DNA from: Sinohyriopsis cumingii
Taxonomy: Eukaryota; Mollusca; Bivalvia; Unionida; Unionidae
Reading direction: 5' to 3'
Length of the DNA: 64,000 nt
NCBI GenBank assembly: GCA_028554795.2
Contig: CM068838.1
Coordinates: forward strand, 125,123,928-125,187,927
The notes beneath the pieces are model-generated. The model did not search any database, was not told the DNA's origin, and worked only from the letters and a program-made list of their open reading frames with translations. Every line of letters starts with the position of its first letter. The stretch's first letter is position 1. This document shows positions 6,019-25,672 of this stretch, in pieces. The translations under genes were made by a program, and so were the position numbers.

Positions 6019-6353
6019 AGTAGTGAAAGGGGGCACTTTACGGACAATGGGAATTAGCATTACAGGGACCCCTGGGTCAGATTACGGACAATGGAAATTT
6101 AACATGGCGAAAAATCGTGGGTCAGATTACGGACAAGGGGAATTAACATGGCAAAAAATCGTGGGTTACTTTACGGACAAGGGGAATTTAACATGGGAAT
6201 AAATCGTGGGTCACTCTACGGACAAGGGGAATTTAACATGGGATTTTTTTTTTTTAAATTTTAAAAAAAATTTTTTTTTTTTAAAAAAGGGGTAGGCAAT
6301 TCAAAGACTATCTCTTTTCGAGAAATATGGCTGGCCCTGAAAAGGGCCTTTGG
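6019..6353 (+). repeat. Polinton left terminal inverted repeat
   Basis: Matches the reverse complement of 25338-25672. The outer part holds about five ~45-bp subrepeats built on TTACGGACAA(T/G)GGGAATT...AACATGG. Next comes a T/A homopolymer palindrome near 6244-6286, then a unique inner part ending in a histone-like hairpin at 6333-6348. Confidence 0.95.
6333..6348 (-). terminator. Histone-type 3' stem-loop in left TIR
   Basis: On the minus strand it reads GGCCCTTTTCAGGGCC: a 6-bp stem with a 4-nt TTTC loop. It lies about 22 nt past the stop of the minus-strand gene 6371-6601 and is followed by AGCCA and a purine stretch GAAAAGAGA. This is the arrangement of metazoan histone mRNA 3' ends (SLBP stem-loop, then U7 element). 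Confidence 0.8.
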
Positions 6354-6370
6354 TTTATGTTAATATGCCC

Positions 6371-6601
6371 TTAACATAAAGGGCATTTGCGACATCTTCT
6401 TTTCCTCAAACTTCGTCTTACAGCAGGGCCATACATCAGAGTCCTCTTGAGGCAACCTTGTCTCTCTATATAGACTCTTCTTATCCACAGACTGCTGTTG
6501 GTCCTGTAGACAACGGTCCACTTGGATCGGACATACATGAGCATGTCCGTCCTGAACATCATTGTTGACACAAGGGTTGAAGATTCAACGTCGGTCCACA
6601 T
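6371..6601 (-). CDS. Small Arg/Cys-rich accessory protein
   Basis: 76 codons with an ATG start. A minus-strand TATA box (TATAAATA, 6646-6653) lies 45 bp upstream, the same spacing as other genes in this element, and a histone-like hairpin follows the stop by about 22 nt. These two signals, more than the protein itself, support it as a gene. The product is strongly basic, with a C-terminal run rich in Arg, Lys and Cys (RKRRCRKCPLC). No known domain is recognised. A DNA- or RNA-binding role would fit the charge but is a guess. Confidence 0.6.
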   Translation of the reverse strand: MWTDVESSTLVSTMMFRTDMLMYVRSKWTVVYRTNSSLWIRRVYIERQGCLKRTLMYGPAVRRSLRKRRCRKCPLC

Positions 6602-6820
6602 GTTGAGGCTCCGAGAATAGGTGAATCAATGCAGTGAACTGCGCTTATTTATAGGGACAGAAAGGATTGAAACGGATTGAGTTCATTCACCAATCCGAAC
6701 ACGCGTTACAGAATTCAGTCAGCCCGCATCCAATCCAAAGAGAGCAGTCTGTGACGTCACGTAGTCAATATAGATTCGCTAGCGCTTGTGTGCAGTCAAT
6801 CTATGCGACAGTGATTCATC
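6602..6820. promoter_or_regulatory. Divergent promoter region with CRE and TATA
   Basis: It separates the leftmost minus gene from the plus gene at 6821. It holds a minus-strand TATA (6646-6653), CCAAT motifs near 6690 and 6730, a perfect palindromic CRE/ATF site TGACGTCA at 6752-6759, and an AATATAGA TATA-like sequence near 6768 for the plus gene. Confidence 0.6.
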
Positions 6821-7387
6821 ATGACGGAAACTCAGAAAACGATCCAGTGGGGTGCACCAGCAGGGGAGACCGCCCAAGGGAACCCGGACTTACTTTCAGA
6901 AGAGGTGAATTGGGATTTTGTGGATTTTCTCTCCTCGCAAGAATTTGTTCCGGAACCTTCGTTACCTTCTTCATTACCGCAAGTGGAAAATTTTAGACAG
7001 AGACAGAAAGAAGAATTGGAGAAATTTATACAACGACAAAAGGAAGCGGAACAGGCTTTTCTCCTACAGCAACAGCAACAAGAAGAAGAGGTAAGAAAAA
7101 AACAACAGCAAGAAGAAGTAGCAGCAAAGAAACAAGAGGGTGAAAATCAAACGGTCACGGTACTGTTGGACATTTTAGCGGAGTTAAGAAGTCTGAAACA
7201 AATGTATCAGACTTCTTTATCACGACCGAAGAGAATACGACCTTCCCGAGCCAAACATGTCAACCCTGTGACTAAGCCTACCGTACCACCCTTAGTGATT
7301 TCAACCCAATCATTATCATCATTACGCAGTCCAGAAGTAGGCCTTGGCCGTGGCAAAGGCTTAAGGCAGTTAAAATTGATTGCTTAA
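6821..7387 (+). CDS. Accessory coiled-coil protein
   Basis: 188 aa, not assigned to a family. Residues about 60-115 form a charged Q/E/K-rich helix (runs of QQQQQEEE and KKQQQEE), most likely a coiled coil. A Leu-rich helical stretch (LLDILAELRSLKQM) follows, then a basic Pro-rich tail. It is divergent from the gene at 6371-6601 and convergent with that at 7680-8153. It ends in a histone-type stem-loop at 7416, a feature shared with the three right-hand accessory genes. Its function is unknown; the shared architecture suggests one accessory class. Confidence 0.75.
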   Translation: MTETQKTIQWGAPAGETAQGNPDLLSEEVNWDFVDFLSSQEFVPEPSLPSSLPQVENFRQRQKEELEKFIQRQKEAEQAFLLQQQQQEEEVRKKQQQEEVAAKKQEGENQTVTVLLDILAELRSLKQMYQTSLSRPKRIRPSRAKHVNPVTKPTVPPLVISTQSLSSLRSPEVGLGRGKGLRQLKLIA

Positions 7388-7415
7388 ACTCACCCCTGCA
7401 CCATAAAGAAAAAAA

Positions 7416-7431
7416 GGCCCTTTTCAGGGCC
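7416..7431 (+). terminator. Histone-type 3' stem-loop
   Basis: GGCCCTTTTCAGGGCC preceded by an A run and followed directly by ACCCA, the usual histone cleavage context. A purine element GAAAAGAAA lies at 7445-7453, where a U7 snRNA target would be. It begins 29 nt after the stop at 7387. An AATAAA at 7644 could be a backup. Confidence 0.88.
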
Positions 7432-7587
7432 ACCCACATTTCTCGAAAAGAAATACAATTTCAATTTGCCAATCACTCAAAAAAACTCACCCATTTTACC
7501 CTTATAGTACGTGTCTGTGTATGAGTGCGTGAGTGTAGCTTCTTATTTTAAAATCACAACTCAAAGACTCTTACCTTATATCATTCA

Positions 7588-7593
7588 TTTATT
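7588..7593 (-). terminator. Poly(A) signal AATAAA, minus strand
   Basis: Lies about 90 nt past the stop of the zinc-knuckle gene 7680-8153. Confidence 0.55.
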
Positions 7594-7679
7594 CTTTTCT
7601 CCATTTTTTACAATCCAATTCACAATTCACAACACAACACTTTAATAAAAAGTTCATTGATTTCTTCTTTTCTCCTTGT

Positions 7680-8153
7680 TTAGTCTCTCTGTTTTTTGAA
7701 TTTCTTCACCGTCACACTCTTTTCCTCTTCTTCTTCCTCCTCGCTTTCTTCCCTTCTTCTTTTTTTCTCCTGTTTCTTTTTCTTCACCTGTCTTCTTTCT
7801 TCCTCAGAAGAATCCCTCTCTTCCTCTGAAGAATCCCTCTCTTCTTCTGAAGAATTCCTCTTTTCTTCTGACTCCTCTTGTTTCTTTTTTGGGCAATCTG
7901 GAGACCAATGTCCTTTTTCTTGACAATAATAACAGGTATCTTGACTTTTGTCTTTTTTATCCCCTGTTTTTTTTCTTTTTTGACGGTCTGGACACTCTGA
8001 AGACCAATGCCCTTTCTTCTGACAGATATAGCAAGTATCTTGACTTTTATCTCTAAAGGAAGGAGAGTAGTCTGTAGGCTGGTCTGAAGAGAATTTTCTA
8101 ATGACCCCTCGCAAAGCTCTGACGAAACGTTCCATCTGGTTAGTCTCTTCCAT
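7680..8153 (-). CDS. Two-zinc-knuckle (CCHC) protein with acidic repeats
   Basis: 157 aa. The ATG at 8153 is chosen because a minus-strand TATA box (8208-8216) lies 55 bp upstream, as for other genes here; the frame is open further upstream but lacks an ATG. Two CCHC zinc knuckles (CYICQKKGHWSSEC and CYYCQEKGHWSPDC) indicate single-stranded nucleic-acid binding, as in retroviral nucleocapsid proteins. They are followed by tandem SSEEERD repeats, likely casein kinase targets, and a Lys/Glu-rich tail. It is divergent from the polymerase gene, so the two may be expressed together. A role in genome packaging or replication is inferred. Confidence 0.82.
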   Translation of the reverse strand: MEETNQMERFVRALRGVIRKFSSDQPTDYSPSFRDKSQDTCYICQKKGHWSSECPDRQKRKKTGDKKDKSQDTCYYCQEKGHWSPDCPKKKQEESEEKRNSSEEERDSSEEERDSSEEERRQVKKKKQEKKRRREESEEEEEEEKSVTVKKFKKQRD

Positions 8154-8287
8154 CGTTGTGCTCGGCTTGAGAGTGAAATGAATAGTGAAAGGACAAGACA
8201 CACACCCTTTTATATACGCTGGTCTGCTATGACTATAAAGTAGTTTATGGTGTTTGAACTTGAGCCATTTGACTTTTTGCTTTCAAG
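8154..8287. promoter_or_regulatory. Divergent promoters of zinc-knuckle and polymerase genes
   Basis: Minus-strand TATATAAAA at 8208-8216 serves 8153. Plus-strand TATAAA at 8234-8239 lies 54 bp before the polymerase ATG at 8288. Confidence 0.75.
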
Positions 8288-11200
8288 ATGAAACGATTCC
8301 ATTCATTCGAGAAGAAAGAAGAAGAAGAAAGTAAGAGGCAGAAACGTGATCTATCGCCTCGTACCAGGGCTGAAATCTTGGCACAAATTCATGCCAGTGA
8401 TTTTGAAGAGGACATGAGTGAACCAGAATCCCAACCCTCTAAACCAAGTTCACCACCCTTAGTCAACCCTGAAAAGTACTATTCCATTCGAGAGACGGAA
8501 AAGCGCTCCTCTAGAAAATTTAGAACTACGGCTTACAAATACACGGTGAAGTTTAAAGATTTCAAGGCTGAAGTGCCGTTAGAGAAAGCAGAAGTGTTCA
8601 TCACCGAGGTGTGGGATTCTTTGCTCACTGCACTCAAGCGACAATGTCAACCCAAAGAAGACGATCGCTTGAGACTTTCCATACAACACGACGGTTTGAA
8701 ATCCCCTGTTTGGATCGAGTTTAGCACCCCTGCAGAATTGACTGCTTCCAAAGTCATGGACAAGATTCAACACGTACAACAATCTAATGATCAGTTTGAC
8801 ATCACCGATGGTAAAGCCACACTGGACATGACCCACGTCTCTCCTCCTCAAGGGACAGGACGCAAAAAGATGTTATTGGTGGACGACCTTCGCAACACCA
8901 AAAAGAGTCTTGTCCGAATTAACAACCCTCATGACCAGATGTGTTTAGCCCGTGCCATCGTGGTGGGACGAACCTATGCCAACAAGAACGACACGGTAGA
9001 ATGGAAAAGAACCTGGGACACTATTCAACGTTCCGACCGAGCCAAACAACGAAACGAAGCAGAACTCCTGTTGCAACAAGCCGGACTGCCCAAAGACACA
9101 CCCTGTGGCATTCCTGAGATGCAAAAATTGCAAGATGCCCTAGCTCCACGCTACACCTTGAAAGTGCACCCTCAAGAAATGCGCGGGCCTCTGTTGTTTC
9201 GAGGCCAACATTTTAAGGACGGAAAATACATTCACCTTTATCATCACGATGACCATTTCGATACCATTACCAGTATCACTGGATTCCTGGGATATGCTTA
9301 TTATTGTGAGAAATGTGACTATGGTTATAATAATCGAGAGCAACACAAACATTGTGGATGGAAATGCTCAGGATGTTTGGCCTCTCAACCCTGTCTGAGC
9401 GAAGAACCAGTGCCTTGTTCAACTTGTCTGCGCACGTTTGTCAGCCCTACCTGTTACCAACAACATTTGAAGACGCAAGGTTCACAGAAGAAATGCGCTT
9501 GTCAACTCCTGAGATTGTGCCCTACGTGTGGACAAGGCATACGTACCAATAATACCAAGGCACACGTATGTTCAGGAAAGAAAAAATGTCACATTTGTCA
9601 CCACATTGTGGACTTGGAACACGAATGTTACGTGCAAAAATACCAACCCCCACCAGAGAAAGAGGACGGTCACAAGAAGAAAGGCAATTTCATCTTTTTC
9701 GATTTCGAATGCATGCAAGAGACCGGCATTCACATTCCTAATTTCTGCGTGGCTCATCGAGCGTGCGAGAAGTGCATTCAAGAACCTATCTTCAGTCATT
9801 GCCCTCACTGTAGCAAGATTCCCGGAGGGCGTGAAAAAATCTTTCGGGGACCAAACACGTTAGCCGATTTTGCCCAATGGGTCTTAGACCCCGTCGACAA
9901 GACGTGGAGCCAAGAGGACATCGAACGTTACGGAGATTGTCATCGCCATGCCACAGTGATGGCTCACAATTTCTCCGGATACGATGGACAGTTTCTTCTC
10001 AGATACTATACGGAACAAGGCACCGAGCGTCCTAAAGTGACTTTGAACGGAGCCAAAATCATTTTCATGCAAGTGGGACAAGTACAGTTTAAAGATTCGA
10101 TGAGCTATTTGGCCATGCCTTTGAGTCGAATGCCTAAAACGTTTGGAATGACAGAAATGGCTAAAGGGTACTTTCCACACTTTTTCAATACGGAAGCCAA
10201 TCAACACGCCGTTCTACCCCATTTACCAGAGGCTCACTATTACGACCCCGACAACATGCGTACCGAACAACGAGAAGCTTTCTACGCTTGGTACCAGATT
10301 CACGCCTCGGACCCTTTCGACTTTCAGGAAGAAATGTTAAAGTATTGTCGTTCCGACGTGGACATTTTACGGCGTTGCTGTGGAAAATTTCGAGAACTGT
10401 TCATGGAACACGGAGGGGTCGATCCTTTGAAAGAAGCTTGCACCATTGCCAAAGCGTGTTCCTTAGTGTATCGACAACGATTCATGCCTGAAAAGACCGT
10501 GGCTGTCATCAGTCCTCAAACGACCCACTTTGTCAAACGTCAATACTCGGTCAAAGCCCTACGTTGGTTACATTACTTGTGCGACAAGGAAGACAAGTGG
10601 ATTCAGCATGCCCGCAACGGAGGGGGCGAAAAGACCATCGGAACGTATTCGGTCGATGGCTGGGACTTAGAAAACCCCAAGATCGTGTACGAGTTTAACG
10701 GTTGCTTATTTCACGGATGTCCTGTTTGTTACCCTGACCGTGGCACTAAAAATCAGTTTTTGCAACGAACCATGGAAGACTTGTACCAGGACACTTGTCA
10801 GCGACGCCTAAAGTTAGAACAGCAAGGATACCAAGTGGTGGAAATGTGGGAACACGAGTACGATCACCGTATGAGAACCGATCCCGAGTTTAAACGCCTC
10901 GTGGAAAGTTACCAGTTCATGGACCCGCTGAACCCGAGGGATAGTTTGTACGGAGGAAGGACCAATGCCACCTGTTTGCTGTACCAAGCCGACGAAGAGA
11001 AAGGAGAAGAAATCAAATACTTGGACGTGTGTTCGCTATATCCCTACGTGTGCAAATATTGTCGCTTTCCCGTAGGGCACCCGCAATTGCTGACGGAACA
11101 CATCGACCTGAAAAACATTCGACAATACGAAGGCTTGATCAAGTGTAAAGTTTTGCCTCCCACGAACCTATACCATCCCGTCTTACCTCACCATTGTCAA

Positions 11201-12343
11201 GGCAAACTGATGTTTCCCTTGTGCCGTACTTGTGCCGAGGCGTGCAACCAAGATCAGCCTTGTCAGCACACCCAGGAAGAACGGGCCTTGACGGGAACCT
11301 GGGTCAGCGTGGAATTGTTCAAAGCTCTGGACATGGGATACCAACTGTTAGAAGTGTACGAAATTTGCCACTTTCCCAAGACACAACAGTACCGCAAGGG
11401 TGACCCTACTCAGAAAGGCATTTTCGCCGACTACGTGGATGCCTTTTTGAAACTGAAGCAAGAAGCCAGCGGCTATCCTTCCTGGTGTCACACTCCCGAA
11501 GACCAAATACAATTCAAAGAGAAATACTACGAACAAGAAGGCATCACTTTAGACCACATCGAGAAAAACGAAGGCAGGAGATCGTTTGCCAAAGTGATGT
11601 TAAATTGCTTGTGGGGTAAAATGGCACAACGACCGTGTTTACCGAAGACGGAATATTTGACAGAACCTTCCCGCTACTTCCAGATGATTCACGACAAAAC
11701 CAAATACATGAAACACGTGGACGTCGTTCGAGAGAATTTGATCTTGGTCAATTACGAAGAAGATCTGGACTTTGTACAAGACGACCTTTTTGGAAATGTC
11801 ATCATTGCGGCTTACGTGACAGCCCATGCTCGCTTAAAATTGTACGAAGCTTTAGAACTGTTAGAAGAACGCGTCCTGTACTTTGACACGGACAGTTGCA
11901 TTTACGTCCATCACCCGATTCAACATCACCCTAACATCGAAGGAGACCGTTTAGGAGCCTGGACAGACGAGCATCCCGACGACAAGATTCTAAGTTTCGT
12001 CAGTGGCGGTCCCAAAAATTACGGCTACGAATACCGTGACAAACAAAGGGAAGTGCACACGACGTGCAAAGTGAAAGGACTGACTCTGAATTATCGTACC
12101 AGTCGAGTGGTCAACTTTGGGGTATTGAAAGAAGCCTTGCAATCGGGAGAGGATGGAAACTTTAAAGTGACCACCTACCAACCGAACAAGATTGTACGTT
12201 TACCCACTCACCACATCGTCAGTCGACCCTTGGAAAAAGTCTATCAAATCGTGTACCAGAAGCGAGTTCGACTTCCCAATCATTTCACCTTACCGTACGG
12301 TCACGTCGGTATTGGTCTGTATATAAAAAGGAACCCTAGGTAA
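8288..12343 (+). CDS. polB: Protein-primed family B DNA polymerase
   Basis: 1351 aa, intact. It replicates the linear element with a protein primer, as in Polintons and adenoviruses. The N-terminus is charged. Residues about 350-455 hold many Cys/His pairs, probably zinc fingers. The 3'-5' exonuclease motifs are present: Exo I DFEC (D472, E474), Exo II NFSGYD (D566) and Exo III YCRSDVD (D690). The palm has motif A DVCSLYP (D913), motif B around K1102 and N1106 (NCLWG, with Trp where Tyr is usual), and motif C DTD (D1200, D1202). Every catalytic residue I can place is present. The last codons contain the TATA box of the next gene (12320-12328). TATA at 8234-8239 supports the start. Confidence 0.97.
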   Translation: MKRFHSFEKKEEEESKRQKRDLSPRTRAEILAQIHASDFEEDMSEPESQPSKPSSPPLVNPEKYYSIRETEKRSSRKFRTTAYKYTVKFKDFKAEVPLEKAEVFITEVWDSLLTALKRQCQPKEDDRLRLSIQHDGLKSPVWIEFSTPAELTASKVMDKIQHVQQSNDQFDITDGKATLDMTHVSPPQGTGRKKMLLVDDLRNTKKSLVRINNPHDQMCLARAIVVGRTYANKNDTVEWKRTWDTIQRSDRAKQRNEAELLLQQAGLPKDTPCGIPEMQKLQDALAPRYTLKVHPQEMRGPLLFRGQHFKDGKYIHLYHHDDHFDTITSITGFLGYAYYCEKCDYGYNNREQHKHCGWKCSGCLASQPCLSEEPVPCSTCLRTFVSPTCYQQHLKTQGSQKKCACQLLRLCPTCGQGIRTNNTKAHVCSGKKKCHICHHIVDLEHECYVQKYQPPPEKEDGHKKKGNFIFFDFECMQETGIHIPNFCVAHRACEKCIQEPIFSHCPHCSKIPGGREKIFRGPNTLADFAQWVLDPVDKTWSQEDIERYGDCHRHATVMAHNFSGYDGQFLLRYYTEQGTERPKVTLNGAKIIFMQVGQVQFKDSMSYLAMPLSRMPKTFGMTEMAKGYFPHFFNTEANQHAVLPHLPEAHYYDPDNMRTEQREAFYAWYQIHASDPFDFQEEMLKYCRSDVDILRRCCGKFRELFMEHGGVDPLKEACTIAKACSLVYRQRFMPEKTVAVISPQTTHFVKRQYSVKALRWLHYLCDKEDKWIQHARNGGGEKTIGTYSVDGWDLENPKIVYEFNGCLFHGCPVCYPDRGTKNQFLQRTMEDLYQDTCQRRLKLEQQGYQVVEMWEHEYDHRMRTDPEFKRLVESYQFMDPLNPRDSLYGGRTNATCLLYQADEEKGEEIKYLDVCSLYPYVCKYCRFPVGHPQLLTEHIDLKNIRQYEGLIKCKVLPPTNLYHPVLPHHCQGKLMFPLCRTCAEACNQDQPCQHTQEERALTGTWVSVELFKALDMGYQLLEVYEICHFPKTQQYRKGDPTQKGIFADYVDAFLKLKQEASGYPSWCHTPEDQIQFKEKYYEQEGITLDHIEKNEGRRSFAKVMLNCLWGKMAQRPCLPKTEYLTEPSRYFQMIHDKTKYMKHVDVVRENLILVNYEEDLDFVQDDLFGNVIIAAYVTAHARLKLYEALELLEERVLYFDTDSCIYVHHPIQHHPNIEGDRLGAWTDEHPDDKILSFVSGGPKNYGYEYRDKQREVHTTCKVKGLTLNYRTSRVVNFGVLKEALQSGEDGNFKVTTYQPNKIVRLPTHHIVSRPLEKVYQIVYQKRVRLPNHFTLPYGHVGIGLYIKRNPR
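12320..12328 (+). promoter_or_regulatory. TATA box inside the polymerase 3' end
   Basis: TATATAAAA lies inside the last codons of the polymerase, 57 bp before the ATG of the BIR gene at 12385. Confidence 0.7.
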
Positions 12344-12384
12344 GATCGATAGTTCATTGCGACTACCAAGACCGAGCGAACAAG

Positions 12385-13122
12385 ATGAATACTTTGAAAA
12401 AGACATCGTTCCAGTTTGGGGATTGTAAAAAAGTTGTATCTTCCTCTAGTGTGACTAATATTGGATGGATAAGACCCAGACATTGCGAGGGAAAATGTCC
12501 GGAAGGAAACTGCGATTGTCCATGTGGTTACCATTGTAATTGCGTAACGGAGTTTGCAGACGAGTGCGATTGTGAGCCTTGCGATGGGACCGATGCTGTA
12601 CCTTGTGACCTGAGCGATGCCGTAAAGCATCATGGGAACTTTGTTCTCACTGCCCCTGTCATGGAAAGTGATGCTGTGCGTGTCAAACCTCAGGGATGCG
12701 AAAGCGATGCCGGTCGTCCTCTTAGACATTTTACCGGGTTTAAAGGGGAATGTCGACCTTCACGTTTACCTCCCTACGGATGTCATCCAGCCCTGAGCAA
12801 ACTCCTGTTCCTGTCACCCAACCCTTATCGAAACGAACCTGTGAAAAACGAATATTCGTTCCCTGTGCGTTTGTCGGAATACTGCGACTTTGAAAATCGT
12901 CTTCAATCGTTCAAAGGAAAATGGCCAAAGTATCTGGGAGGACCGACCCCCGAAGAATTAGCCAGAGCCGGATTTTTCTACTTGGGCGAAGGAGATAAAG
13001 TCAAGTGCTTCAGTTGCGGTGTGTCACTTCACCACTGGGAACCGCAAGATTCGGCCTACGTTGAACATGCTCGATGGTCACCGAATTGTCATTACTTACC
13101 TTTAGTGGGACCGAGACATTGA
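12385..13122 (+). CDS. BIR-domain (IAP-like) protein
   Basis: 245 aa. The C-terminal third (about 168-240) is a baculoviral IAP repeat with the zinc ligands C208, C211, H228 and C235 in exact C-x2-C-x16-H-x6-C spacing. BIR domains bind caspases or IAP antagonists, and large DNA viruses use them to delay host-cell death; that role here is inferred. Residues about 34-75 form a separate Cys cluster (CEGKCPEGNCDCPCGYHCNC) of unknown fold. There is one BIR and no RING, so ubiquitin-ligase activity is unlikely. The gene has its own TATA box and is probably a captured host gene. It sits between the polymerase and a cluster of small accessory ORFs. Confidence 0.9.
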   Translation: MNTLKKTSFQFGDCKKVVSSSSVTNIGWIRPRHCEGKCPEGNCDCPCGYHCNCVTEFADECDCEPCDGTDAVPCDLSDAVKHHGNFVLTAPVMESDAVRVKPQGCESDAGRPLRHFTGFKGECRPSRLPPYGCHPALSKLLFLSPNPYRNEPVKNEYSFPVRLSEYCDFENRLQSFKGKWPKYLGGPTPEELARAGFFYLGEGDKVKCFSCGVSLHHWEPQDSAYVEHARWSPNCHYLPLVGPRH

Positions 13123-13150
13123 AGTAACTTCTTACCATAATAATCTGTTC

Positions 13151-13606
13151 ATGGATACTTTACAAGAGAACATTCGTGCTTTGCCTGTGGAGTTGAGAGA
13201 ACGCATTTACCGAGAGCTGGTCAAAATACAAGTGAAACGTAAAGAACAATTGCATCCGTCACGTCACCGGTGTTTGAACCACTGGTACCTGAAGGCTATA
13301 CAAGGATTGATTCAATTGAAAGTGTTCCATCGGACAGACATTGATCAACGATCCTCTAGTTTTAAAAAGGATTGGTTTGGTATGGACGATTGTAGTTACA
13401 TCATTGTAAACGTACTGCATCGAATTCCAGAGGAAGAGTTAACGAATTACCAACATCTTGAACACAATGTCAACTTGGTGAAAGAGGAAACTTCTGAACG
13501 AATTGTAATGTGTAGATTAGTGACTCAACGATTTAAATTCGACACTGAAGTGAAACCATGTTTGTGCAAAGAGTACATTTCTTGTGTCAGACCAAAGAGG
13601 ATTTAG
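13151..13606 (+). CDS. F-box-like accessory protein, copy 1
   Basis: 151 aa. Residues 1-45 (IRALPVELRERIYRELVK...) have the LPxEL...I...L pattern of an F-box-like or similar helical adaptor motif, followed by basic residues, Cys and Trp. It is nearly identical over its first ~40 residues to the next gene (13619) and diverges afterwards, so the two are tandem duplicates. The F-box reading rests on pattern only. If true, it would recruit host SCF ubiquitin ligase, which would fit the neighbouring BIR gene as part of a host-manipulation block. Confidence 0.65.
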   Translation: MDTLQENIRALPVELRERIYRELVKIQVKRKEQLHPSRHRCLNHWYLKAIQGLIQLKVFHRTDIDQRSSSFKKDWFGMDDCSYIIVNVLHRIPEEELTNYQHLEHNVNLVKEETSERIVMCRLVTQRFKFDTEVKPCLCKEYISCVRPKRI

Positions 13607-13618
13607 TATGACCTATTC

Positions 13619-14137
13619 ATGGATACTTTGCTAGAGAACATTCGTGCTTTGCCTGTGGAGTTGAGAGAACGCATTTACCGAGAGCTGGTGAAAATACAAG
13701 TCAAACGTAAAGAACAATTGCATCCGTTACGTCACCAGATCTTTAACCACTGGTACCTGAATGGTATAAGAGAACTGATTCGTCAGAAATTGTTTCAGTG
13801 GTCAGACCTTGTTCAACACTTTGAGTTAGTGAATGATCGAAACGTTCATTATTTTGGTTACTTCGAGATTCACCTACAGCAATACATTGAGGAAGACAAG
13901 TTAAAGGATTATCAACATATTTTACGTGAAATCTACTTAGAGGAAGAGGAAACTTCTAAACGAACTCTGAAGTTTCGGTTACAGTATGCAAGATTTAGAT
14001 TCCCTACTGGAGAACGAAGATCTCTGGCTAGAAAGTACGTGTATTGTTTCCGAAACAAAGAGACTATAAAAACAGGCTGCCATGCCACGACTTATGTCAC
14101 ATGTCATCCAACAGATTCCGTGGAAGGAACTCAATGA
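13619..14137 (+). CDS. F-box-like accessory protein, copy 2
   Basis: 172 aa. Paralogue of 13151-13606. The leaders TTCATGGATACTTT are identical and the first ~40 residues match almost fully. The rest is alignable but diverged (for example LKDYQHILREIYLEEEETSKR here against a similar stretch in copy 1). The 3' end runs about 20 codons past the point where copy 1 stops and overlaps the ORF at 14082. A TATAAAAA at 14065-14072 lies inside this gene. Confidence 0.65.
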   Translation: MDTLLENIRALPVELRERIYRELVKIQVKRKEQLHPLRHQIFNHWYLNGIRELIRQKLFQWSDLVQHFELVNDRNVHYFGYFEIHLQQYIEEDKLKDYQHILREIYLEEEETSKRTLKFRLQYARFRFPTGERRSLARKYVYCFRNKETIKTGCHATTYVTCHPTDSVEGTQ

Positions 14138-14807: not shown

Positions 14808-14819
14808 AAAAAAACATTC

Positions 14820-14825: not shown

Positions 14826-14842
14826 CGTGTTCTGAAAAAGTA

Positions 14843-14894: not shown

Positions 14895-15638
14895 ATGGCT
14901 ACCTCTACTGTCTCTGCTCCCTCTTCCTCTACTGTCAAAGTCATCGACGAACACTTAGATCGTGCCAGTTGGGAGGCTTTGTATCTTCGCCATCCCTTTA
15001 ACATGCTCATTGCTGGACCTAGCGGTTCAGGCAAAACCGAATTCGTCAAACGTTTGATCGAACATAAACATCATTTGATCGATCGGCCCCCTCAACGGAT
15101 CGTGTGGTGTTACAAAGAGTGGCAATCGGCGTACAGCCTCTTGCGAGAAAGTCAAGGCGATTCCATCGTGTTTGTGGAAGGCATTCCTAAAGAAGACGAC
15201 GGCATCGTCTCTGACTCCCGTCAAACCCATTTGGTCATTTTCGACGACATGTTAGGAGAAGACGAAGAAGAAATTAAATTGTGGTTCACGCGCAAAGGGC
15301 ATCACCGTAATGCCAGTGTCATTTACATCACCCAAAATTTGTTTCAACAAAGTAAAGCCCATCGCACCATCAGTCTCAATGCGCATTACGTGGTCTTGTT
15401 TAAAAGCCCTCGAGATAAATCGCAAGTGCAAGTCTTAGCCAAACAGTTAGGAACGCCTTGGCTGACTCAGGCGTACGACGATGCCACTCAAACTCCACAC
15501 GCCTATTTACTCGTCGATTTGAAACCTACGACCCCCGAGGATTTGCGATTTCGTACCCACTTGTTTCACCACTGGTGCCAAGACGGAGGGCCTGTCCTGT
15601 ACACGTCTCCGTCCTCGACTTCATTTCACTCCCCATGA
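14895..15638 (+). CDS. A32-like DNA packaging ATPase
   Basis: 247 aa. FtsK/HerA-class ATPase that pumps DNA into capsids in Polintons and related viruses. The Walker A motif GPSGSGKT is at residues 41-48, Walker B LVIFDD at about 113-118, and a YITQN motif near 145 is likely the sensor. The order, length and absence of extra domains match the family. The frame is intact. Its own TATA and an ATG in good context support the start. The next gene's TATA begins 8 bp after the stop. Confidence 0.95.
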   Translation: MATSTVSAPSSSTVKVIDEHLDRASWEALYLRHPFNMLIAGPSGSGKTEFVKRLIEHKHHLIDRPPQRIVWCYKEWQSAYSLLRESQGDSIVFVEGIPKEDDGIVSDSRQTHLVIFDDMLGEDEEEIKLWFTRKGHHRNASVIYITQNLFQQSKAHRTISLNAHYVVLFKSPRDKSQVQVLAKQLGTPWLTQAYDDATQTPHAYLLVDLKPTTPEDLRFRTHLFHHWCQDGGPVLYTSPSSTSFHSP

Positions 15639-17091: not shown

Positions 17092-17136
17092 GCCTTCGGA
17101 AGTCCCAAGATCTCAGAATTCACCCCTGACAACCCC

Positions 17137-17775: not shown

Positions 17776-17796
17776 GACACCAATCAACACAAAAAA

Positions 17797-18909
17797 ATGG
17801 AAAAAGTCTTAGCTAGCATTTACTACGATCCCTCCCATCCTGCAGGTTACGCAGGAGTTCAAAAATTGTATCGTGCTGCCAAAACGCGACTGAAAAGTCT
17901 CCGTTTACCTCAAGTGCAACGATGGTTACAAGAACAAGCTACCTACACTTTACACAAACCCATTCGACGCAAGTTTGCCAGAAGTCGCACCCGAGTGGAA
18001 GGCATCGATCATCAATGGCAAGCCGATTTAGCCGATGTCTCTCATTTGGCCAGCTACAATCGTGGTTACAAATATTTGTTTTGTGTCATCGACGTCTTTT
18101 CCAAATTTGCCTGGGTCGTACCCTTGACTTCCAAATCCAGCAGCGAGTTAGTGCGAGCCCTGCAACGGGTGTTGAAACAAAGCGGTCGTCGCCCTCTTCG
18201 ATGGCAAACGGACAAAGGCACCGAATTTCTGAACCAAGCTTTCCAAAAAGAATTAAAGAAACGTGACATTCATTTTTTTACCACCGAGAATCCCGAAACC
18301 AAAGCCAGTATCGTGGAACGTTTTCAACGCACTTTGAAAGAACGCATGTGGAAATATTTTACGCATCACCACACTCTGAAGTACATCGACATCTTACCGC
18401 ACCTGGTGCAAGCGTACAACCAATCTTACCATCGAAGCATCGGACGTGCCCCGCAAGACGTGACTCCCGACAACGAAGTGCTGGTGTTCGAGCGCCTGTT
18501 CGGTACGTCCCCGACGAGGGCTGTCCCCAAGAAAAGTGGAGAGTTGACCGTAGGAGATTGGGTGCGCATTGGCAAAACCAAATGCACTTTCGACAAAGGT
18601 TACTTACCTAACTGGACGACCGAACTGTTTCGCGTCACTGGACGAGTACATGGCCGTCATCCTGCCGTCTATAAATTGGAAGACATGAACGGAGAAGTAC
18701 TCAAAGGAACGTTTTATTTGCCCGAGTTACAACGTGTCACCAAAAAAGAAGACGACGTGTACGACATCGAAAGCATTCTCGAACGCAGAACCCGTAAAGT
18801 GGGCAAACGACGTGTCAAAGAAGTCAAAGTACGTTGGAAAGGATATCCACCCAGTTTCGATTCTTGGATCGACGCTTCGCAAGTCATCGACTATAAAAAG
18901 AAGAAGTGA
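17797..18909 (+). CDS. Retroviral-type integrase with chromodomain
   Basis: 370 aa, intact. It inserts the linear element by strand transfer, giving the 6-bp duplications seen here. The rve core carries the DDE triad: D77 (WQADLAD), D139 (QTDKGTEF) and E174 (SIVERFQ), with canonical D-35-E spacing. There is no HHCC zinc finger at the N-terminus. The C-terminus (about 321-364) is a chromodomain (YDIESILE...VRWKGYPPSFDSW) with cage-like aromatics Y322, W347 and Y350, likely steering insertion to modified histones. That would fit landing in satellite DNA. Confidence 0.97.
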   Translation: MEKVLASIYYDPSHPAGYAGVQKLYRAAKTRLKSLRLPQVQRWLQEQATYTLHKPIRRKFARSRTRVEGIDHQWQADLADVSHLASYNRGYKYLFCVIDVFSKFAWVVPLTSKSSSELVRALQRVLKQSGRRPLRWQTDKGTEFLNQAFQKELKKRDIHFFTTENPETKASIVERFQRTLKERMWKYFTHHHTLKYIDILPHLVQAYNQSYHRSIGRAPQDVTPDNEVLVFERLFGTSPTRAVPKKSGELTVGDWVRIGKTKCTFDKGYLPNWTTELFRVTGRVHGRHPAVYKLEDMNGEVLKGTFYLPELQRVTKKEDDVYDIESILERRTRKVGKRRVKEVKVRWKGYPPSFDSWIDASQVIDYKKKK

Positions 18910-18914
18910 CCATC

Positions 18915-20257: not shown

Positions 20258-20264
20258 GTAAGTC

Positions 20265-20684: not shown

Positions 20685-20697
20685 AACACAAAACAAA

Positions 20698-21988
20698 ATG
20701 ATGCACCGAGAGTCTTGCGCTTGTTCCAAGACGGAACTGGATCTGTTTGCCATGCCCCCCACCATGATGACCATGCAAGAATTTCAGTGGGTGGAATTTA
20801 ATCCCATCTCCTCACTGATCGATTCCGCTCCCATCGAGTTTGAAATCAAAGGATAGCCCGAAGATTACATCGATCTGAATAGCAGTTACTTGTACTTGAA
20901 AGTCCAAGTTCTAGATAAGGATGGTGCTGGAGTAGAAGACACTGAGAATATAGCTCCCGTCAACAATTTCATGCATTCCTTGTTCAGCTCAGTGGATTTG
21001 TACTTGAATAACAAACTAGTCAGCAGCAGCATGGATACATACCCTTACCGCGCCTACCTGGAAAATCTCTTGACGTACGGAATAGATGCCAAGGATACTC
21101 ATCTCAATGCCTGTGTGCTGTGGGAACCTGACGAAGCGAACAAGTTCGACGCAACAGATGGAAGCAATTCCGGCTTTGAGCAAAGACAAAGCAAAATCTT
21201 AGAGAACAAGAGTTTAGAACTGATGGATCGTTTGCATTTGGACATGTGGTTGCAAGAGAAATATTTGCTGAACGGGGTGAATGTTCGCTTGAGACTGAAT
21301 CGCAACAGTACCGCTTTCCATTTGTTGGCTGATCCTGATAAGACTGGCATTCCTAAAAGCAAAATTTTAGAGGCCAAACTCTACGTACGACGCGTGGAAG
21401 TGTTACCCAAAGTGGGTAACGATATCAGTCAAACGTTGAGCAGAACGACTGCCAAGTATCCCATCCGACGTGTGGAAGTGAAAACGTTCACCATTTCTGC
21501 TGGACTGCAATCCATAACCGAAGATCATCTGTTCCAAGGACAGTTACCCAAACGTTTGATCCTTGGTATGGTCACGAATTCAGCCTTCAACGGAGCCTTC
21601 AAAGAAAATCCTTTCAACTTTCAACACTTCAACGTGAAGAAAGTCGAAGTCAGTCGTGATGGCAAGACCTTGTGTACCCGACCTTTCGAAACTGACTTTA
21701 GTGACAAGAAGAAGAATTACTTGAGATCGTACTTGTCCCTTAGGAACCAACACCAGTCACGGCATTACGTACGAGGATTACGCAGGAGGCTATGCTTTGT
21801 GGGCTTTCGATTTCACTCCAGACCAAGGCAGCGACGAGGGGCATTTCCACCCTATAAAATCTGGCCAGATTCGTGTGGAACTTCAGTTTGCAGATAAACT
21901 ACCAGCGACAGTGAACGTCATCCTCTATGCAGAATTCGATAATACCATAGAAATCAACAGTTTGAGAGAAGTCATTCTAGATTATTAG
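20698..21988 (+). pseudogene. Major capsid protein (double jelly-roll), interrupted
   Basis: About 430 codons. Start ATG at 20698, 13 nt after the preceding stop. The frame is closed by an in-frame TAG at 20854-20856 (codon 53), reopens in the same frame to about 21740, then shifts: the conserved C-terminal block (GGYALWAFDFTPDQ, ending near 21988) lies in the +1 frame. The frameshift falls between about 21735 and 21765. Without correction the main frame ends at 21897. Codons either side are otherwise well preserved, so the damage is recent or the TAG and shift are sequencing or assembly errors. It would form the hexon-like shell. Confidence 0.9.
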
Positions 21989-21994
21989 AAAGCC

Positions 21995-22501: not shown

Positions 22502-22523
22502 AGAAGAAAACAAACACAAAACA

Positions 22524-22958
22524 ATGGATACCTGGGAACTTTATTACCTTTTGAACCACAGTTCGTATACGGCTTCTTGGAATCCCGTCGTCTGTGCTAA
22601 AGATGAACTCCCTCATCGCAAACCTAAAGACCATCAAGCTTACGTGATCAACACGGACGACAGTCATCTCCCAGGAACCCACTGGGTAGCCGTCTACTTT
22701 CCTCAAGAAGGATGTGTGGAATATTTCGATTCGTACGGATTGCCCCCTTTGGAAGACGATATCATCGACTTTATGAGAAGAAATGCTCAAACCACCCGAT
22801 TCAATAATGTGAAATTACAAGGCACAGATTCCTTGGTGTGTGGACAGTACTGTGTGTATTTTCTGCATCATCGCAGCCTGGGCTATTCCTTAGAACATTT
22901 AGTGACTCATTTTGATCCTCGTTCTTCTGCTAGAAACGATGTGAAAGTAGATCGATAG
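22524..22958 (+). CDS. Adenovirus-type maturation cysteine protease (C5-like)
   Basis: 144 aa. Cleaves capsid precursors during maturation. The catalytic set is present in order: H53 (GTHWVAVY), D69 (EYFDSYG), Q99 (KLQGTDS) and C110 (CGQYC). It ends at a TAG (22956-22958) soon after the NDVKVD segment, where family members usually continue a last helix, and the same frame stays open for 41 more codons. It may therefore be truncated. The start has an AACAATGG context. No TATA is seen. Confidence 0.92.
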   Translation: MDTWELYYLLNHSSYTASWNPVVCAKDELPHRKPKDHQAYVINTDDSHLPGTHWVAVYFPQEGCVEYFDSYGLPPLEDDIIDFMRRNAQTTRFNNVKLQGTDSLVCGQYCVYFLHHRSLGYSLEHLVTHFDPRSSARNDVKVDR

Positions 22959-23084
22959 TTTTGTGACCATTATGCTTATCTTTTGTCTCAAGCTAGGAAA
23001 CGTAGTGTCCATCAATGGCCTAATGATTTCCAACAGTGGAAATCACAATTTCATTCACAACGTTGTCAGCCTTGTTTAAAGTAG
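22959..23084 (+). other. In-frame open extension after the protease TAG
   Basis: Forty-one sense codons in the protease frame, then TAG at 23082-23084. The composition is protein-like (basic and aromatic, for example QARKRS and WPNDFQQW). It is either the cut-off C-terminus or chance. An AATAAA follows at 23171. Confidence 0.4.
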
Positions 23085-23170
23085 ATTGTATTTGAAGAAA
23101 AAAAATTGTTTGATGTTATATTGTTGGATTATTGTTAAAAATGTTGTTGTTTAGTGTTAAGTGATTTTTG

Positions 23171-23176
23171 AATAAA
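23171..23176 (+). terminator. Poly(A) signal AATAAA
   Basis: Lies 213 nt past the protease stop in an AT-rich stretch; likely 3' end of the capsid/protease transcripts. Confidence 0.55.
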
Positions 23177-23276
23177 AAATGTTGTGTTTAGAAAAAAATG
23201 CCTTTGTCGTTTGTTTAGCTATAAGAATGTTGGATTGATGCTCTTTCATTTCTTACTATCTCTCTCATGAACGTGT

Positions 23277-23314
23277 GGGGATGTTTTCCTTCACGTCCGC
23301 GCTTTAACTTTAAG
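23277..23314 (+). promoter_or_regulatory. Shared promoter box 1
   Basis: GGGGATG followed by TTTTCCTTCACGTCCGCGC, then CTTT and a TATA-variant TTTAAG at 23309. It lies about 60 bp before ATG 23368. The same box precedes the next two genes. Confidence 0.75.
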
Positions 23315-23367
23315 AACCGGGTTGTTCCCAGTCTAGCCATCCATTGTCGACTCATCCTCCTAAGAAG

Positions 23368-23727
23368 ATGTGCTCCAAACTAGCTAAGCTCAACGAAGCC
23401 TACGTGAATTTGCATAGGGTCAGACACAGTCTGATACCGAAACCAGAAGAAATAGAGAATGTGAGAATGTTAAAAATCACTGAAGACCTGATAGAAGAGC
23501 TCTTCAGAGAAGAAATGAACAGGGAGAAAGAAGAATGGACAGAGAAGTACAGACTTCAGAAACAGCAGCAACAGCAGCAACAACAGCAACAGCAGCAGCA
23601 ACCTGAAGCTGACAGAGGCTTTGTCGATTGTCGTATCGACACCAAAGAATTCTTCTTCTCTTTCCGAAGAAGCAGACCTATAGCCAGAAAGTCTATCCTC
23701 AGAGGACATCGCATTCTTAGAAACTAA
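23368..23727 (+). CDS. Accessory coiled-coil protein with polyglutamine
   Basis: 119 aa. The ATG at 23368 is chosen from its distance to the promoter box. A helical N-terminus is followed by a long run of Gln from CAG/CAA codons (about 75-87), then a basic tail (FFSFRRSRPIARKS). No family is recognised. It ends in a histone-like hairpin. The promoter box and hairpin group it with the next two genes as a repeated expression module. The glutamine run may vary between copies. Confidence 0.65.
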   Translation: MCSKLAKLNEAYVNLHRVRHSLIPKPEEIENVRMLKITEDLIEELFREEMNREKEEWTEKYRLQKQQQQQQQQQQQQQPEADRGFVDCRIDTKEFFFSFRRSRPIARKSILRGHRILRN

Positions 23728-23755
23728 AAAGAATGCCATAGCAAAACAAAAAAAA

Positions 23756-23771
23756 AGCCCTTTTCAGGGCT
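23756..23771 (+). terminator. Histone-type 3' stem-loop
   Basis: AGCCCTTTTCAGGGCT: same loop as the others, but the outer pair is A-T instead of G-C, a compensatory change that supports selection for the hairpin. TACCCA follows, and GAAAAGAAAT begins at 23785. The hairpin starts 29 nt after the stop. Confidence 0.85.
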
Positions 23772-24120
23772 ACCCAATAATCTAGAAAAGAAATAAAGAT
23801 TAATTTGCCAATGTGTGTAGGTAGAGTAGTGTGAAAATAAACACTAACTCTTTCTTAAAAAATGTGAGGGTATGAGTTTGTGTGTTTGTGTTTGTAAGTG
23901 ATAAAATAGGTTGGTGTGGATAGTAGATTAAAATGATGTTTGTTTTTTTGGGCTATTTGAGGTGAATATTTGGGGTTAGATTGGATTGCTTTGAGTATGT
24001 GGATAGTCTATTGAAGTGATGGGTAGCATAAAAAAGTGAGCGAGTGTTTCTTTTAGGTCCGCGCGTTGTTGTTGTTTTTTTTTGGTCATGATCTAGGTAA
24101 GATGAATTTTATGTTTTTAG
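23772..24120 (+). repeat. Non-coding spacer duplicated at 24569-24861
   Basis: After the hairpin, a segment near 23800-23890 (TTAATTTGCCAATGTGTGTAG and onward) and one near 24086-24120 (GATCTAGGTAAGAT) recur after the next gene. A partial promoter box (GTCCGCGCG) is at 24058. This shows that whole gene modules were duplicated. Confidence 0.8.
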
Positions 24121-24158
24121 GGGGATGTTTTCCTTCACGTCCGCGCTTTCAGTATAAA
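24121..24158 (+). promoter_or_regulatory. Shared promoter box 2 with TATA
   Basis: The box begins at 24121 with GGGGATG and ends in GTCCGCGC. TATAAA is at 24153-24158, 63 bp before ATG 24216. A decayed box lies 71 bp upstream. Confidence 0.8.
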
Positions 24159-24215
24159 TTGAAACTCGTTCGGCAGTCCAGCTACCCTTGTTGATTGATC
24201 AACACAGCCAGAAGA

Positions 24216-24524
24216 ATGACTAGCAGAATAGTGAAACTGTTAGAACTCCAGATGCACCTGGAATATGCCAGGCGCATAGTAAACGAACTATCAGCGGAGG
24301 CTATCGTAGAAGAAGCAAGAATAAAGAAGGAAGAAGAGGAGAGAAGACAGAGGAAAGAGGAGGAAAAGAAAAGAGAAGAGATGATGTCGTTTAATATTCC
24401 TGAAACAGAGGATTGGGGTGCTGAAGCGAATCATCCTCCCTCTGCGCTCCCTAGAAGAAAGGTGAAAGAAGACTGGGGAAGAAGATGCATGTGCGGCGCC
24501 AGGCCAGGAAGGTGCAACCATTAG
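24216..24524 (+). CDS. Accessory coiled-coil protein with Cys tail
   Basis: 102 aa from ATG 24216. An N-terminal helix (RIVKLLELQMHLEYARRI) runs into a Glu/Arg/Lys coiled coil. Then comes a DWGAE segment, repeated later as KEDWG, and a short C-terminal CMCGARPGRC motif that could bind metal. It has promoter box 2 and ends 28 nt before a histone-type hairpin. Function unknown. Confidence 0.65.
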   Translation: MTSRIVKLLELQMHLEYARRIVNELSAEAIVEEARIKKEEEERRQRKEEEKKREEMMSFNIPETEDWGAEANHPPSALPRRKVKEDWGRRCMCGARPGRCNH

Positions 24525-24552
24525 ATAGGTGCATCTGGAGTTTAAAAAAAAC

Positions 24553-24568
24553 AGCCCTTTTCAGGGCT
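24553..24568 (+). terminator. Histone-type 3' stem-loop
   Basis: AGCCCTTTTCAGGGCT followed by ACCCA and GAAAAGAAA at 24582-24590. Same A-T outer pair as the copy at 23756. Confidence 0.85.
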
Positions 24569-24790
24569 ACCCAATACTCTAGAAAAGAAATAACTATTAA
24601 TTTGCCAATGTGTGTAGGTAGAGTAGTGTGAAAATAAACACTAACTCTTTATTAATAGTGGAAGTGTATGAGTTTGTGTGTTTGTGTGTTTGTAAGAGCT
24701 CAGGTATGTTTGTGTGAATAGTAGATTATGGGTTTTTTAGCAAATGTGGAGAGTATAGTTAGGGTTATATTATATGAAATGAGAAAGTAG

Positions 24791-24899
24791 GGGGATGTTT
24801 TCCTTCACGTCCGCGCGATGTTGTTTGGTCATCATCTAGGTAAGATCCATTTTATGTTTCAGGGGATGTTTTCCTTCACGTTCGCGCTTTTCGTATAAG
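24791..24899 (+). promoter_or_regulatory. Paired promoter boxes and TATA
   Basis: Two full boxes start at 24791 and 24862, 71 bp apart. The second is followed by TATAAG at 24894, 55 bp before ATG 24949. The pair mirrors the decayed-plus-intact pair at 24050 and 24121. Confidence 0.8.
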
Positions 24900-24948
24900 A
24901 ACCCACAGTATTAGTTGTTCAAACCATTCTGCAAAGAATACAAAGAAG

Positions 24949-25329
24949 ATGGCGTCAAACCAAATGGACAAATTACAAACCTTGCAAGACGTTTTAGACA
25001 ACTTAGGAATAATGGAACAGATGCTATTAAGACTGGTTGAAGACCATTATTCCTATAGTCCCCATCGTGTGAAGATGGAAATTAATAACTTAAGGAAAGC
25101 AAAGGACAAGATTAGTGGTTTCATGAAAGAGATCAAGGAGGAGAAGGAGGATGAAGAGGAAAGAATAAGAATAAGCAATTGGAACGAAAAAATTGAAAAA
25201 GAAGAAGAAAATGAGAAGAGGAAGAAAGAAGAAGAGGAGAAAGAGAAGAAAGAAGAGAAGGAGAAAAAAAAGAAGAGAAAGAGTGTTGGAGATAAAAAAA
25301 GAAGTTGGTGGAGGAAAAGAAGAAATTAG
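24949..25329 (+). CDS. Accessory coiled-coil protein, Lys/Glu-rich
   Basis: 126 aa. The N-terminal 60 residues look globular and helical (LQDVLDNLGIMEQMLLRLVE). The C-terminal half is a continuous Lys/Glu coiled coil ending in a basic WWRKRRN tail. No family is recognised. The stop is 13 nt before the hairpin that lies inside the right terminal repeat, so the transcript would run into the TIR. Confidence 0.65.
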   Translation: MASNQMDKLQTLQDVLDNLGIMEQMLLRLVEDHYSYSPHRVKMEINNLRKAKDKISGFMKEIKEEKEDEEERIRISNWNEKIEKEEENEKRKKEEEEKEKKEEKEKKKKRKSVGDKKRSWWRKRRN

Positions 25330-25337
25330 AAGAAAAC

Positions 25338-25672
25338 CCAAAGGCCCTTTTCAGGGCCAGCCATATTTCTCGAAGAGAGATAGTCTTTGAATTGCCTACC
25401 CCTTTTTTTTTAAAAAAAAATTTTTTTTAAAATTTAAAAAAAAAAAATCCCATGTTAAATTCCCCTTGTCCGTAGAGTGACCCACGATTTATTCCCATGT
25501 TAAATTCCCCTTGTCCGTAAAGTAACCCACGATTTTTTGCCATGTTAATTCCCCTTGTCCGTAATCTGACCCACGATTTTTCGCCATGTTAAATTTCCAT
25601 TGTCCGTAATCTGACCCAGGGGTCCCTGTAATGCTAATTCCCATTGTCCGTAAAGTGCCCCCTTTCACTACT
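25338..25672 (-). repeat. Polinton right terminal inverted repeat
   Basis: Inverted copy of 6019-6353 with the same subrepeats, A/T palindrome and inner hairpin (25343-25358). Confidence 0.95.
25343..25358 (+). terminator. Histone-type 3' stem-loop in right TIR
   Basis: GGCCCTTTTCAGGGCC followed by AGCCA and a purine-rich GAAGAGAGA. It is the inverted partner of 6333-6348, so the TIRs supply 3' ends to the outermost genes on both sides. Confidence 0.85.

Follow-up and report, generated by a model that had tools for sequence, protein, structure and literature searches.

Why should a virus-like mobile element in the genome of the bivalve Sinohyriopsis cumingii carry, behind its own small genes, hairpins of the kind that end histone messages? 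The question is raised by a 64,000-nt stretch of DNA (contig CM068838.1, hereafter the window). In the portion of PMC6303110 used here, histone mRNAs are described as the sole metazoan protein-coding mRNAs with a stem-loop end instead of a poly(A) tail. From comparison with host histone genes and with other copies of the element, five accessory genes at its ends are very probably replication-dependent histone-type transcription units, which would be processed by the host and expressed in S phase.

The element is bounded by a left terminal inverted repeat (TIR; 6019..6361, plus strand) and a right one (25330..25672, minus strand), each of which contains a hairpin; in a self-comparison of the window, the inverted repeat spanned 344 nt at 98% complementarity (6018-6361 / 25330-25673). 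A 6-bp target-site duplication, ATCATT, was read directly on both sides (6013..6018 and 25673-25678), although it is weak evidence because the flanking satellite is ATCATT-rich. Core genes on the plus strand encode a type B DNA polymerase of the viral/organellar family (8288..12343; PF03175, 3.6e-42), a packaging ATPase (14895..15638; PF04665, 5.3e-8, above cut-off) and a retrovirus-type integrase with a chromodomain (17797..18909; PF00665, 2.4e-14; PF00385, 1.1e-7), none of them with a hairpin downstream. Moreover, an ORF at 20971..21897 (plus), for which Pfam gave no match, is labeled capsid-type by its likeness to a 428-aa ORF that occupies the equivalent position in another Polinton contig, L069 (31% identity, E 4e-36), and an adenain-type protease is suggested at 22524..22958 (plus; PF00770, E 0.0049, below cut-off). 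Since the predicted type B polymerase (PF03175) and rve integrase (PF00665) lie in one element, we assign it to the Polintons/Mavericks, with which, as with adintoviruses, it shares polymerase, integrase, ATPase, capsid-type ORF, protease-like ORF, long TIRs and the 6-bp duplication.

Five histone-type hairpins had been reported by the first-pass annotation, and direct reading bore out their letters and positions: GGCCCTTTTCAGGGCC at 6333-6348 on the minus strand and at 7416-7431 and 25343-25358 on the plus strand, and AGCCCTTTTCAGGGCT at 23756-23771 and 24553-24568 (plus). With up to 2 mismatches allowed, the hairpin pattern occurred 5 times in the 64 kb against 0.31 expected, and none of 100 shuffles reached 5. 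A covariance search with Rfam models returned RF00032 (Histone3) at all five sites, which are the sole Rfam matches within the element, with E-values from 3e-9 to 2e-5 (on 19.8 kb); relative to the cut-off of 34 bits, three hairpins score above (41.2 bits at 7416, 35.6 at 6333 and 34.2 at 25343) and two below (31.5 bits, E 1.2e-5, at 23756; 31.0 bits, E 2e-5, at 24553). The letters said to follow the hairpins, ACCCA or AGCCA and then a purine element, were likewise found, the purine element standing at +13 in 5/5 sites. Behind the 7416 hairpin, ACCCA (7432..7436, plus) marks the position at which histone pre-mRNA is cut, 5 nt past the stem according to the portion of PMC6303110 used here, and is followed by the downstream element core GAAAAG (7445..7450, plus), the same as in host histone genes. 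GAAAAG also follows the minus-strand hairpin (6314-6319) and, after ACCCA, the two AGCCCTTTTCAGGGCT hairpins (23785-23790 and 24582-24587), while the right TIR copy has AGCCA and then GAAGAG (25372-25377) in place of GAAAAG. The proposal that the A-T outer pair of two copies is compensatory held in part: the A-T caps at 23756 and 24553 are real, but they count as one compensatory change, both hairpins being part of a duplication (95% across 111 nt). In L001 and L007, two copies that have diverged, the outer pair is an uncompensated A-C.

Hairpins stand behind 5 of the 22 ORFs examined and behind none of the other 17, at 22, 28, 28, 28 and 13 nt past the stop, a range of 13-28 nt where 13-29 nt had been given. 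All five accessory ORFs are short and intact in the window. At the left end are an ORF of 76 aa (6371..6601, minus; 22% K/R) with a TATA box upstream (CCTATAAATAAG) and one of 188 aa (6821..7387, plus) with 20 homologues in public protein data, the best 96% identical; at the right end, all on the plus strand, are ORFs of 119 aa (23368..23727), 102 aa (24216..24524) and 126 aa (24949..25329; 29% K/R). Values of dN/dS were 0.04-0.19 for four of the five: 0.13 for the 76-aa ORF (over 4 distinct proteins), 0.04 for the 119-aa (9), 0.19 for the 102-aa (10) and 0.10 for the 126-aa (8). Constraint is weaker on the 188-aa gene (dN/dS 0.59, pooled over 14 of 23 distinct proteins including the damaged copy L015). 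A Pfam scan of 20 ORFs (E <= 0.1), which covered the four plus-strand hairpin genes, returned no histone match, and no Rb-binding LxCxE motif was found in 15 ORFs.

Since one hairpin sits in each TIR, near its inner edge, the hairpin could be conceived as a structure, in DNA or RNA, that acts for the repeat in replication, packaging or integration, rather than as an mRNA 3' end. This we consider highly improbable, because three of the five hairpins lie outside the TIRs, all are co-oriented with and directly behind a gene, and the host-type downstream element is present; furthermore, 75 of 79 sites compiled across copies (one counted twice, as L009, the window's own copy) follow an ORF of 54 aa or more, at 13-36 nt from its stop. 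Although the hairpins at 6333 (minus) and 25343 belong to the two copies of one TIR, they serve different ORFs.

The histone-type reading gains from the host's own genes. H3, H4, H2B, H2A and H1 form one tandem repeat of ~8.3 kb, and all match RF00032 at 35.0-39.4 bits, with GAAAAG 13 nt past the stem in H3, H4 and H2B and 14 nt in H2A and H1; the element has the host core at the host spacing, GAAGAG replacing it in one of five window sites. The metazoan replication-dependent histone mRNA 3' end, the form recognized by the first-pass annotation, is thus matched in the six-pair stem, the four-base loop, ACCCA (AGCCA in the window's TIR copies), the purine downstream element at 13 nt and the short single-ORF genes, and the element's letters are almost identical to those of the host histone genes. 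Unlike that system, the four element genes scanned are non-histone and all five lie in a virus-like mobile element. As for host processing factors, a genome search for U7 snRNA gave no match to Rfam RF00066, which matched no control genome either, and Sm-site patterns gave 78 places against 51 in the reversed control (18 against 32 in a tighter form); a convincing 3' hairpin was missing from all twelve U7 candidates inspected, 9 from the tighter set and 3 from the looser one. For SLBP, intron-blind searches, in which family searches matched no control genome, yielded nothing by Pfam and a best E of 2.85 with the human domain as query.

Three of the hairpin genes share more than the 3' end with host histone genes. 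Four copies of a promoter motif (P1) and one of a second (P2) occur in the window, all on the plus strand before the three right-end genes, and none in 100 shuffles. The element's 23-nt P1 is one letter apart from the host H2B motif and its 21-nt P2 is identical to that of host H4; in this bivalve, H2B and H1 have the P1 form and H4 has the P2 form. P1 at 23280..23302, which departs from the host H2B/H1 motif at one position and has no counterpart in 100 shuffles, lies 65 nt before the ATG at 23368 and is followed by a TTTAA run, with no TATAA. Upstream of the 102-aa gene, P2 (24047..24067), whose 21 nt all agree with the host H4 promoter, precedes P1 (24124..24146), with TATAA beginning 6 nt past the latter; P2 is 85 nt before TATAA, whereas it adjoins TATA in host H4. 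The 126-aa gene has a distal P1 (24794..24816) and a proximal one (24865..24887) with two mismatches, one in the CGTCCGC core, and TATAA again begins 6 nt past the motif. Such motifs were absent before the two left genes and from L069, and were present in L001, L004, L005, L006 and L008 and in 10 of 12 right-end stretches, each cut at a set distance from one of 12 polymerase matches. No E2F-type sites were detected in the element or in the host histone repeat. The CGTCCGC/GGTCCGC motif resembles what we take to be the HINFP consensus, a HINFP-like protein being the candidate factor. As in the histone H4 subtype-specific element (HiNF-P/NPAT), the host and element motifs have CGTCCGC or GGTCCGC near or upstream of TATA; unlike there, the bivalve P1 form belongs to H2B and H1, CGTCCGC survives in only 22 of 39 element P1 motifs (ten right-end stretches), and factor binding is putative. 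In the portion of PMC5706932 used here, HiNF-P is stated to bring both NPAT and polymerase II to the promoters of H4 genes. Having both a host promoter motif and a histone 3' signal, these three genes are probably produced by the host histone-message machinery during DNA copying.

The stem followed by A, 12 nt and GAAAAG has 49,764 matches in the genome and none in a reversed control, and 84 of the first 100 listed places are paired at the spacings of the element's ends. Such abundance, set against 662 first-look histone-fold candidates, would fit a decoy, in which histone-type signals in thousands of copies titrate host SLBP/U7 and do not express element proteins; this has very little probability in our judgment, since the hairpin genes are under purifying selection, needless for a pure decoy. 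Of 34 polymerase matches in the genome, 30 were fetched, one being the window's own (L009); the 7416 site is kept in all 29 others, with the exact 16-mer in 27. The 12 right-end stretches hold 28 sites, 26 of them exact (none in L049, one in L045), and the stem or loop is altered in 8 of the 79 sites.

Persistence of this kind could also reflect youth: pieces of host histone genes may have been picked up as relics, with hairpins that remain only because the copies are young and mRNAs that are polyadenylated. The identity of P2 to host H4 over 21 nt fits capture, the polymerase copies are 98-100% identical among the matches listed, altered promoter cores are frequent among the copies, and possible poly(A) signals (AATAAA/ATTAAA) lie 64-256 nt past the stops of 3/5 hairpin genes. 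Nevertheless, between copies selected by polymerase alone dS reaches 1.8, and at the end genes, where dS between copies exceeds 1, the hairpin and downstream element remain in place, so that hairpins persist despite high synonymous divergence. For the gene at 24216, 24 copy pairs have dS of at least 0.5, with the hairpin identical in 20 and the 12-nt downstream element 100% identical; for the gene at 24949, four diverged pairs retain the hairpin but the 12-nt element scores only 42% at a fixed offset, a comparison displaced in several copies by a spacer that differs by 1 nt. Among eight class-B ends, five of which were found via a neighboring gene's hairpin, mean pairwise identity was 58% for coding sequence, 73% for the 3' UTR spacer, 95% for the hairpin, 78% for the cleavage spacer, 94% for the downstream element and 80% beyond it. 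On this balance we regard the relic explanation as unlikely, and the element probably acquired these signals from the histone genes of its host, with selection maintaining them afterwards.

A hairpin in related copies had been the expectation, and besides the 29 copies above it extends to the distant Polinton L069, whose polymerase is 38% identical to the window's (best segment); there a C2H2 ORF is followed, 28 nt after its stop, by a hairpin of 35.8 bits. L069 is one of four stray Polinton contigs in prokaryote genomes and the only one with a hairpin; the others say little either way, because core genes make up most of what L068 shows, and L070 and L071, of 3.6-3.8 kb, consist largely of polymerase. 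In IMG/VR no relative was found with the window polymerase, a polymerase alignment, the L069 integrase or an accessory-protein alignment, and the hairpin pattern gave 0 strict matches and 4 looser ones, none above 21.3 bits. A match of a virus to RF00032 has been published for SARS-CoV-2; as given in the portion of PMC7786107 used here, it comes from a bioinformatic scan and, instead of closing a gene, falls within the nsp3 coding region, at 14.7 bits (E 0.0044), far below the present scores. In agreement with the first-pass annotation, the literature searched contained no description of histone-type 3' ends in Polintons/Mavericks or adintoviruses; "histone" and "stem-loop" are absent from the main texts of PMC8097293 and PMC11071308 (the founding adintovirus paper was outside this scope).

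In this context, we infer that the hairpin genes give rise to non-polyadenylated S-phase mRNAs. The promoter motifs would attract host histone transcription factors, perhaps HINFP-like, and host SLBP and U7 snRNP would cleave the element's pre-mRNAs ~5 nt past the stem, leaving no poly(A). The accessory proteins would then be made in S phase, when the element, with its own polymerase, would replicate, and the core genes would use ordinary 3' ends. A wider picture, for which we see roughly even chances at best, is that of an animal DNA virus lineage with mock histone genes at both ends, drawing on histone promoter machinery, perhaps in histone locus bodies, and on SLBP/U7 cutting for S-phase-only expression; its ~50,000 sites may compete with host histone mRNA processing, and the distant Polinton suggests a general Polinton strategy.

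In brief, a mobile element whose histone 3' ends match the host's and are under selection, and which also has histone promoter motifs, would, if true, break the histone-only rule and show an integrated virus timing its genes to host DNA replication. It would also preserve the evolutionary traces of an arms race over the machinery of histone mRNAs, and the timing and mode of Polinton expression become testable.

All five hairpins that the first-pass annotation had described, at 6333 (minus strand), 7416, 23756, 24553 and 25343, were present in the window sequence, and a covariance-model check matched Rfam Histone3 (RF00032) to exactly these five places, three of them above the cut-off. When all Rfam families were tried, Histone3 was the sole one matching the Polinton at E <= 1. 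The hairpins lie 22, 28, 28, 28 and 13 nt past the stops of accessory ORFs 6371-6601 (minus strand), 6821, 23368, 24216 and 24949, within the 13-29 nt stated in the first-pass annotation. Of the 22 ORFs checked, the 17 others lacked an exact hairpin within 300 nt. Downstream, the U7-type core begins at 13 nt and reads GAAAAG, except at one of the five sites, where it is GAAGAG. The hairpins at the left and right ends share a single sequence, which sits in both terminal inverted repeats (TIRs) just within their inner edges; thus at either terminus the TIR supplies another gene with its 3' end.

The TIRs (6018-6361 and 25330-25673, inverted) are 344 nt long and 98% complementary, and ATCATT, read directly from the sequence, flanks the Polinton on either side. 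According to Pfam, the element encodes a type B polymerase, a BIR-domain protein (inhibitor of apoptosis; 12385-13122, plus strand; PF00653, 1.3e-23), a packaging ATPase and a chromodomain integrase, together with a weak match to an adenain protease, and its capsid-type ORF resembles an ORF of another Polinton. This ORF (20971-21897, plus strand) has 308 aa against 428 aa in its counterpart on L069, a stray Polinton contig, and the similarity fades near the end, where the present copy may be interrupted. Two adjoining paralogous ORFs (13151-13606 and 13619-14137, plus strand), which start MDTL.ENIRALPVELRERIYREL and are 86% identical over 210 nt, had no Pfam match.

Tandem histone repeats are spaced about 8.3 kb apart in the 2.9-Gb host genome (150 of 662 candidates scored). 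In one repeat (L043), H3, H4, H2B, H2A and H1 share the same strand, and each of the five genes ends in an RF00032 hairpin (35.0-39.4 bits), with GAAAAG at 13 nt past the stem for H3, H4 and H2B and at 14 nt for H2A and H1. Consequently, the Polinton signal, with its core at 13 nt and GAAAAG in four sites, agrees in both spacing and letters with the histone signal of its own host. The three named relatives of the Polinton polymerase, from Saccostrea, Crassostrea and Mercenaria, were all bivalves; among the 120 host H1 relatives listed of 4,976, those named were molluscs, mostly bivalves, with the exception of one bacterial MAG record.

The first-pass annotation had held that absence of the hairpin from related copies would refute its reading. 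At least 34 polymerase copies in the host genome were 98-100% identical to the query, and among the 30 fetched, including the window's own (L009), the 7416-type site was kept in all 29 others, as the exact 16-mer in 27. Twelve right-end stretches yielded 28 sites (26 exact), with none in L049 and one in L045; these stretches were cut at fixed offsets, and some probably end before the last hairpin. Of the 79 sites in total, one of them counted twice, 71 retained stem and loop exactly, with the outer pair matched; the remaining eight include decayed, loop-changed and mismatched forms. In 75 of the 79, the hairpin comes 13-36 nt after an ORF 54 aa or more in length. One gene end of the 7416 type, in host locus L032 (reverse strand, near 6407), bears a 24553-type spacer and downstream element, a sign of exchange among gene ends.

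The dN/dS values of the end genes were 0.04, 0.19, 0.10 and 0.13, with synonymous divergence above 1 in some pairs, and gene 6821 gave 0.59 (14 of 23 distinct proteins counted). For gene 24216, in copy pairs with dS >= 0.5 (n = 24), the hairpin was identical in 20 and the 12-nt downstream element in all 24. In such pairs of gene 24949 the hairpin was identical in four of four, but the downstream element scored a poor 42% when compared at a fixed offset, because in several copies the spacer has changed by 1 nt; gene 23368 offered no pair at that divergence. These gene ends are histone-type in anatomy, and this anatomy is conserved.

Genome-wide, the pattern of stem, A, 12 nt and GAAAAG had 49,764 matches in the host, and its reversed control had none. 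Host histone genes probably account for some hundreds of these matches, as three of their five ends fit the pattern too. Since 84 of the first 100 places listed were paired at the spacings of the Polinton's ends, and four of the window's five sites fit, we infer a family on the order of ten thousand copies, which may fill several per cent of the genome. Polymerase frames were without a stop in 32 of 34 listed copies.

Beyond this host, a polymerase-alignment scan of prokaryote genomes found four stray Polinton contigs (L068-L071), in records of a Nocardioides MAG, a Bacteroidia MAG, a Poribacteria MAG and a Solemya velum symbiont, which are probably host or other eukaryote contamination. RF00032 matched L069 (35.8 bits, E 4e-7); the other three had no hairpin but hold mainly core genes. 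In L069, an 89-aa C2H2 zinc-finger ORF close to the contig end stops 28 nt before the hairpin, and the polymerase of this contig shows 38% identity over its best segment. L069 also encodes a TATA-binding-protein homologue (7189-7695, minus strand; PF00352, 1.2e-27), suggestive of control over transcription initiation, and the promoter motifs described below were not found in it. Hairpin and protein scans of IMG/VR returned no relative.

Histone-like features extend to the presumed promoters. The motif before host H2B and H1 is GATGTTTTC[C/A]ATCACGTCCGCGC and that before H4 is TTTCTTTTAGGTCCGCGCGTT; the Polinton P1 is one letter off the H2B form and two off the H1 form, and P2 is identical to the H4 motif. 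At up to three mismatches, the 64-kb window held four P1 and one P2, all ahead of the three hairpin genes at the right end; 100 shuffles held none of either. A TATA begins 5 nt past the motif in host H4 and H1, 29 nt past it in H2B, and 6 nt past it before genes 24216 and 24949; before gene 23368 there is just a run of TTTAA. P2 adjoins the TATA in host H4 but lies 85 nt away in the Polinton. The motifs were again present before these genes in L001, L004, L005, L006 and L008, and in 10 of the 12 right-end stretches, L045 and L049 being the exceptions. CGTCCGC was intact in just 22 of 39 P1 motifs from the ten stretches, and gene 24949 lacks an intact one in some copies (L048, L052 and L053). 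We take CGTCCGC to be similar to the binding site of HINFP, the H4 factor that works with NPAT; this consensus was not found among the matches listed by literature searches, so naming the factor is the weakest step.

Among the matches listed, in which subscription journals are thinly covered, none described histone-type 3' ends on Polinton or virus mRNAs in its title or abstract opening. The one viral Histone3 claim among them (PMC7786107) scores a weak 14.7 bits and falls within a coding region of SARS-CoV-2, whereas the Polinton hairpins lie past ORF stops. In histone mRNA, the stem is bound by SLBP, the downstream element pairs with U7, cleavage follows ACCCA at 5 nt from the stem, and secondary AATAAA/ATTAAA-type signals are used upon processing failure (PMC6303110). 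AATAAA or ATTAAA also occurs downstream of three hairpin genes. By this route the accessory proteins would probably be produced during S phase, alongside the replication of host and Polinton DNA.
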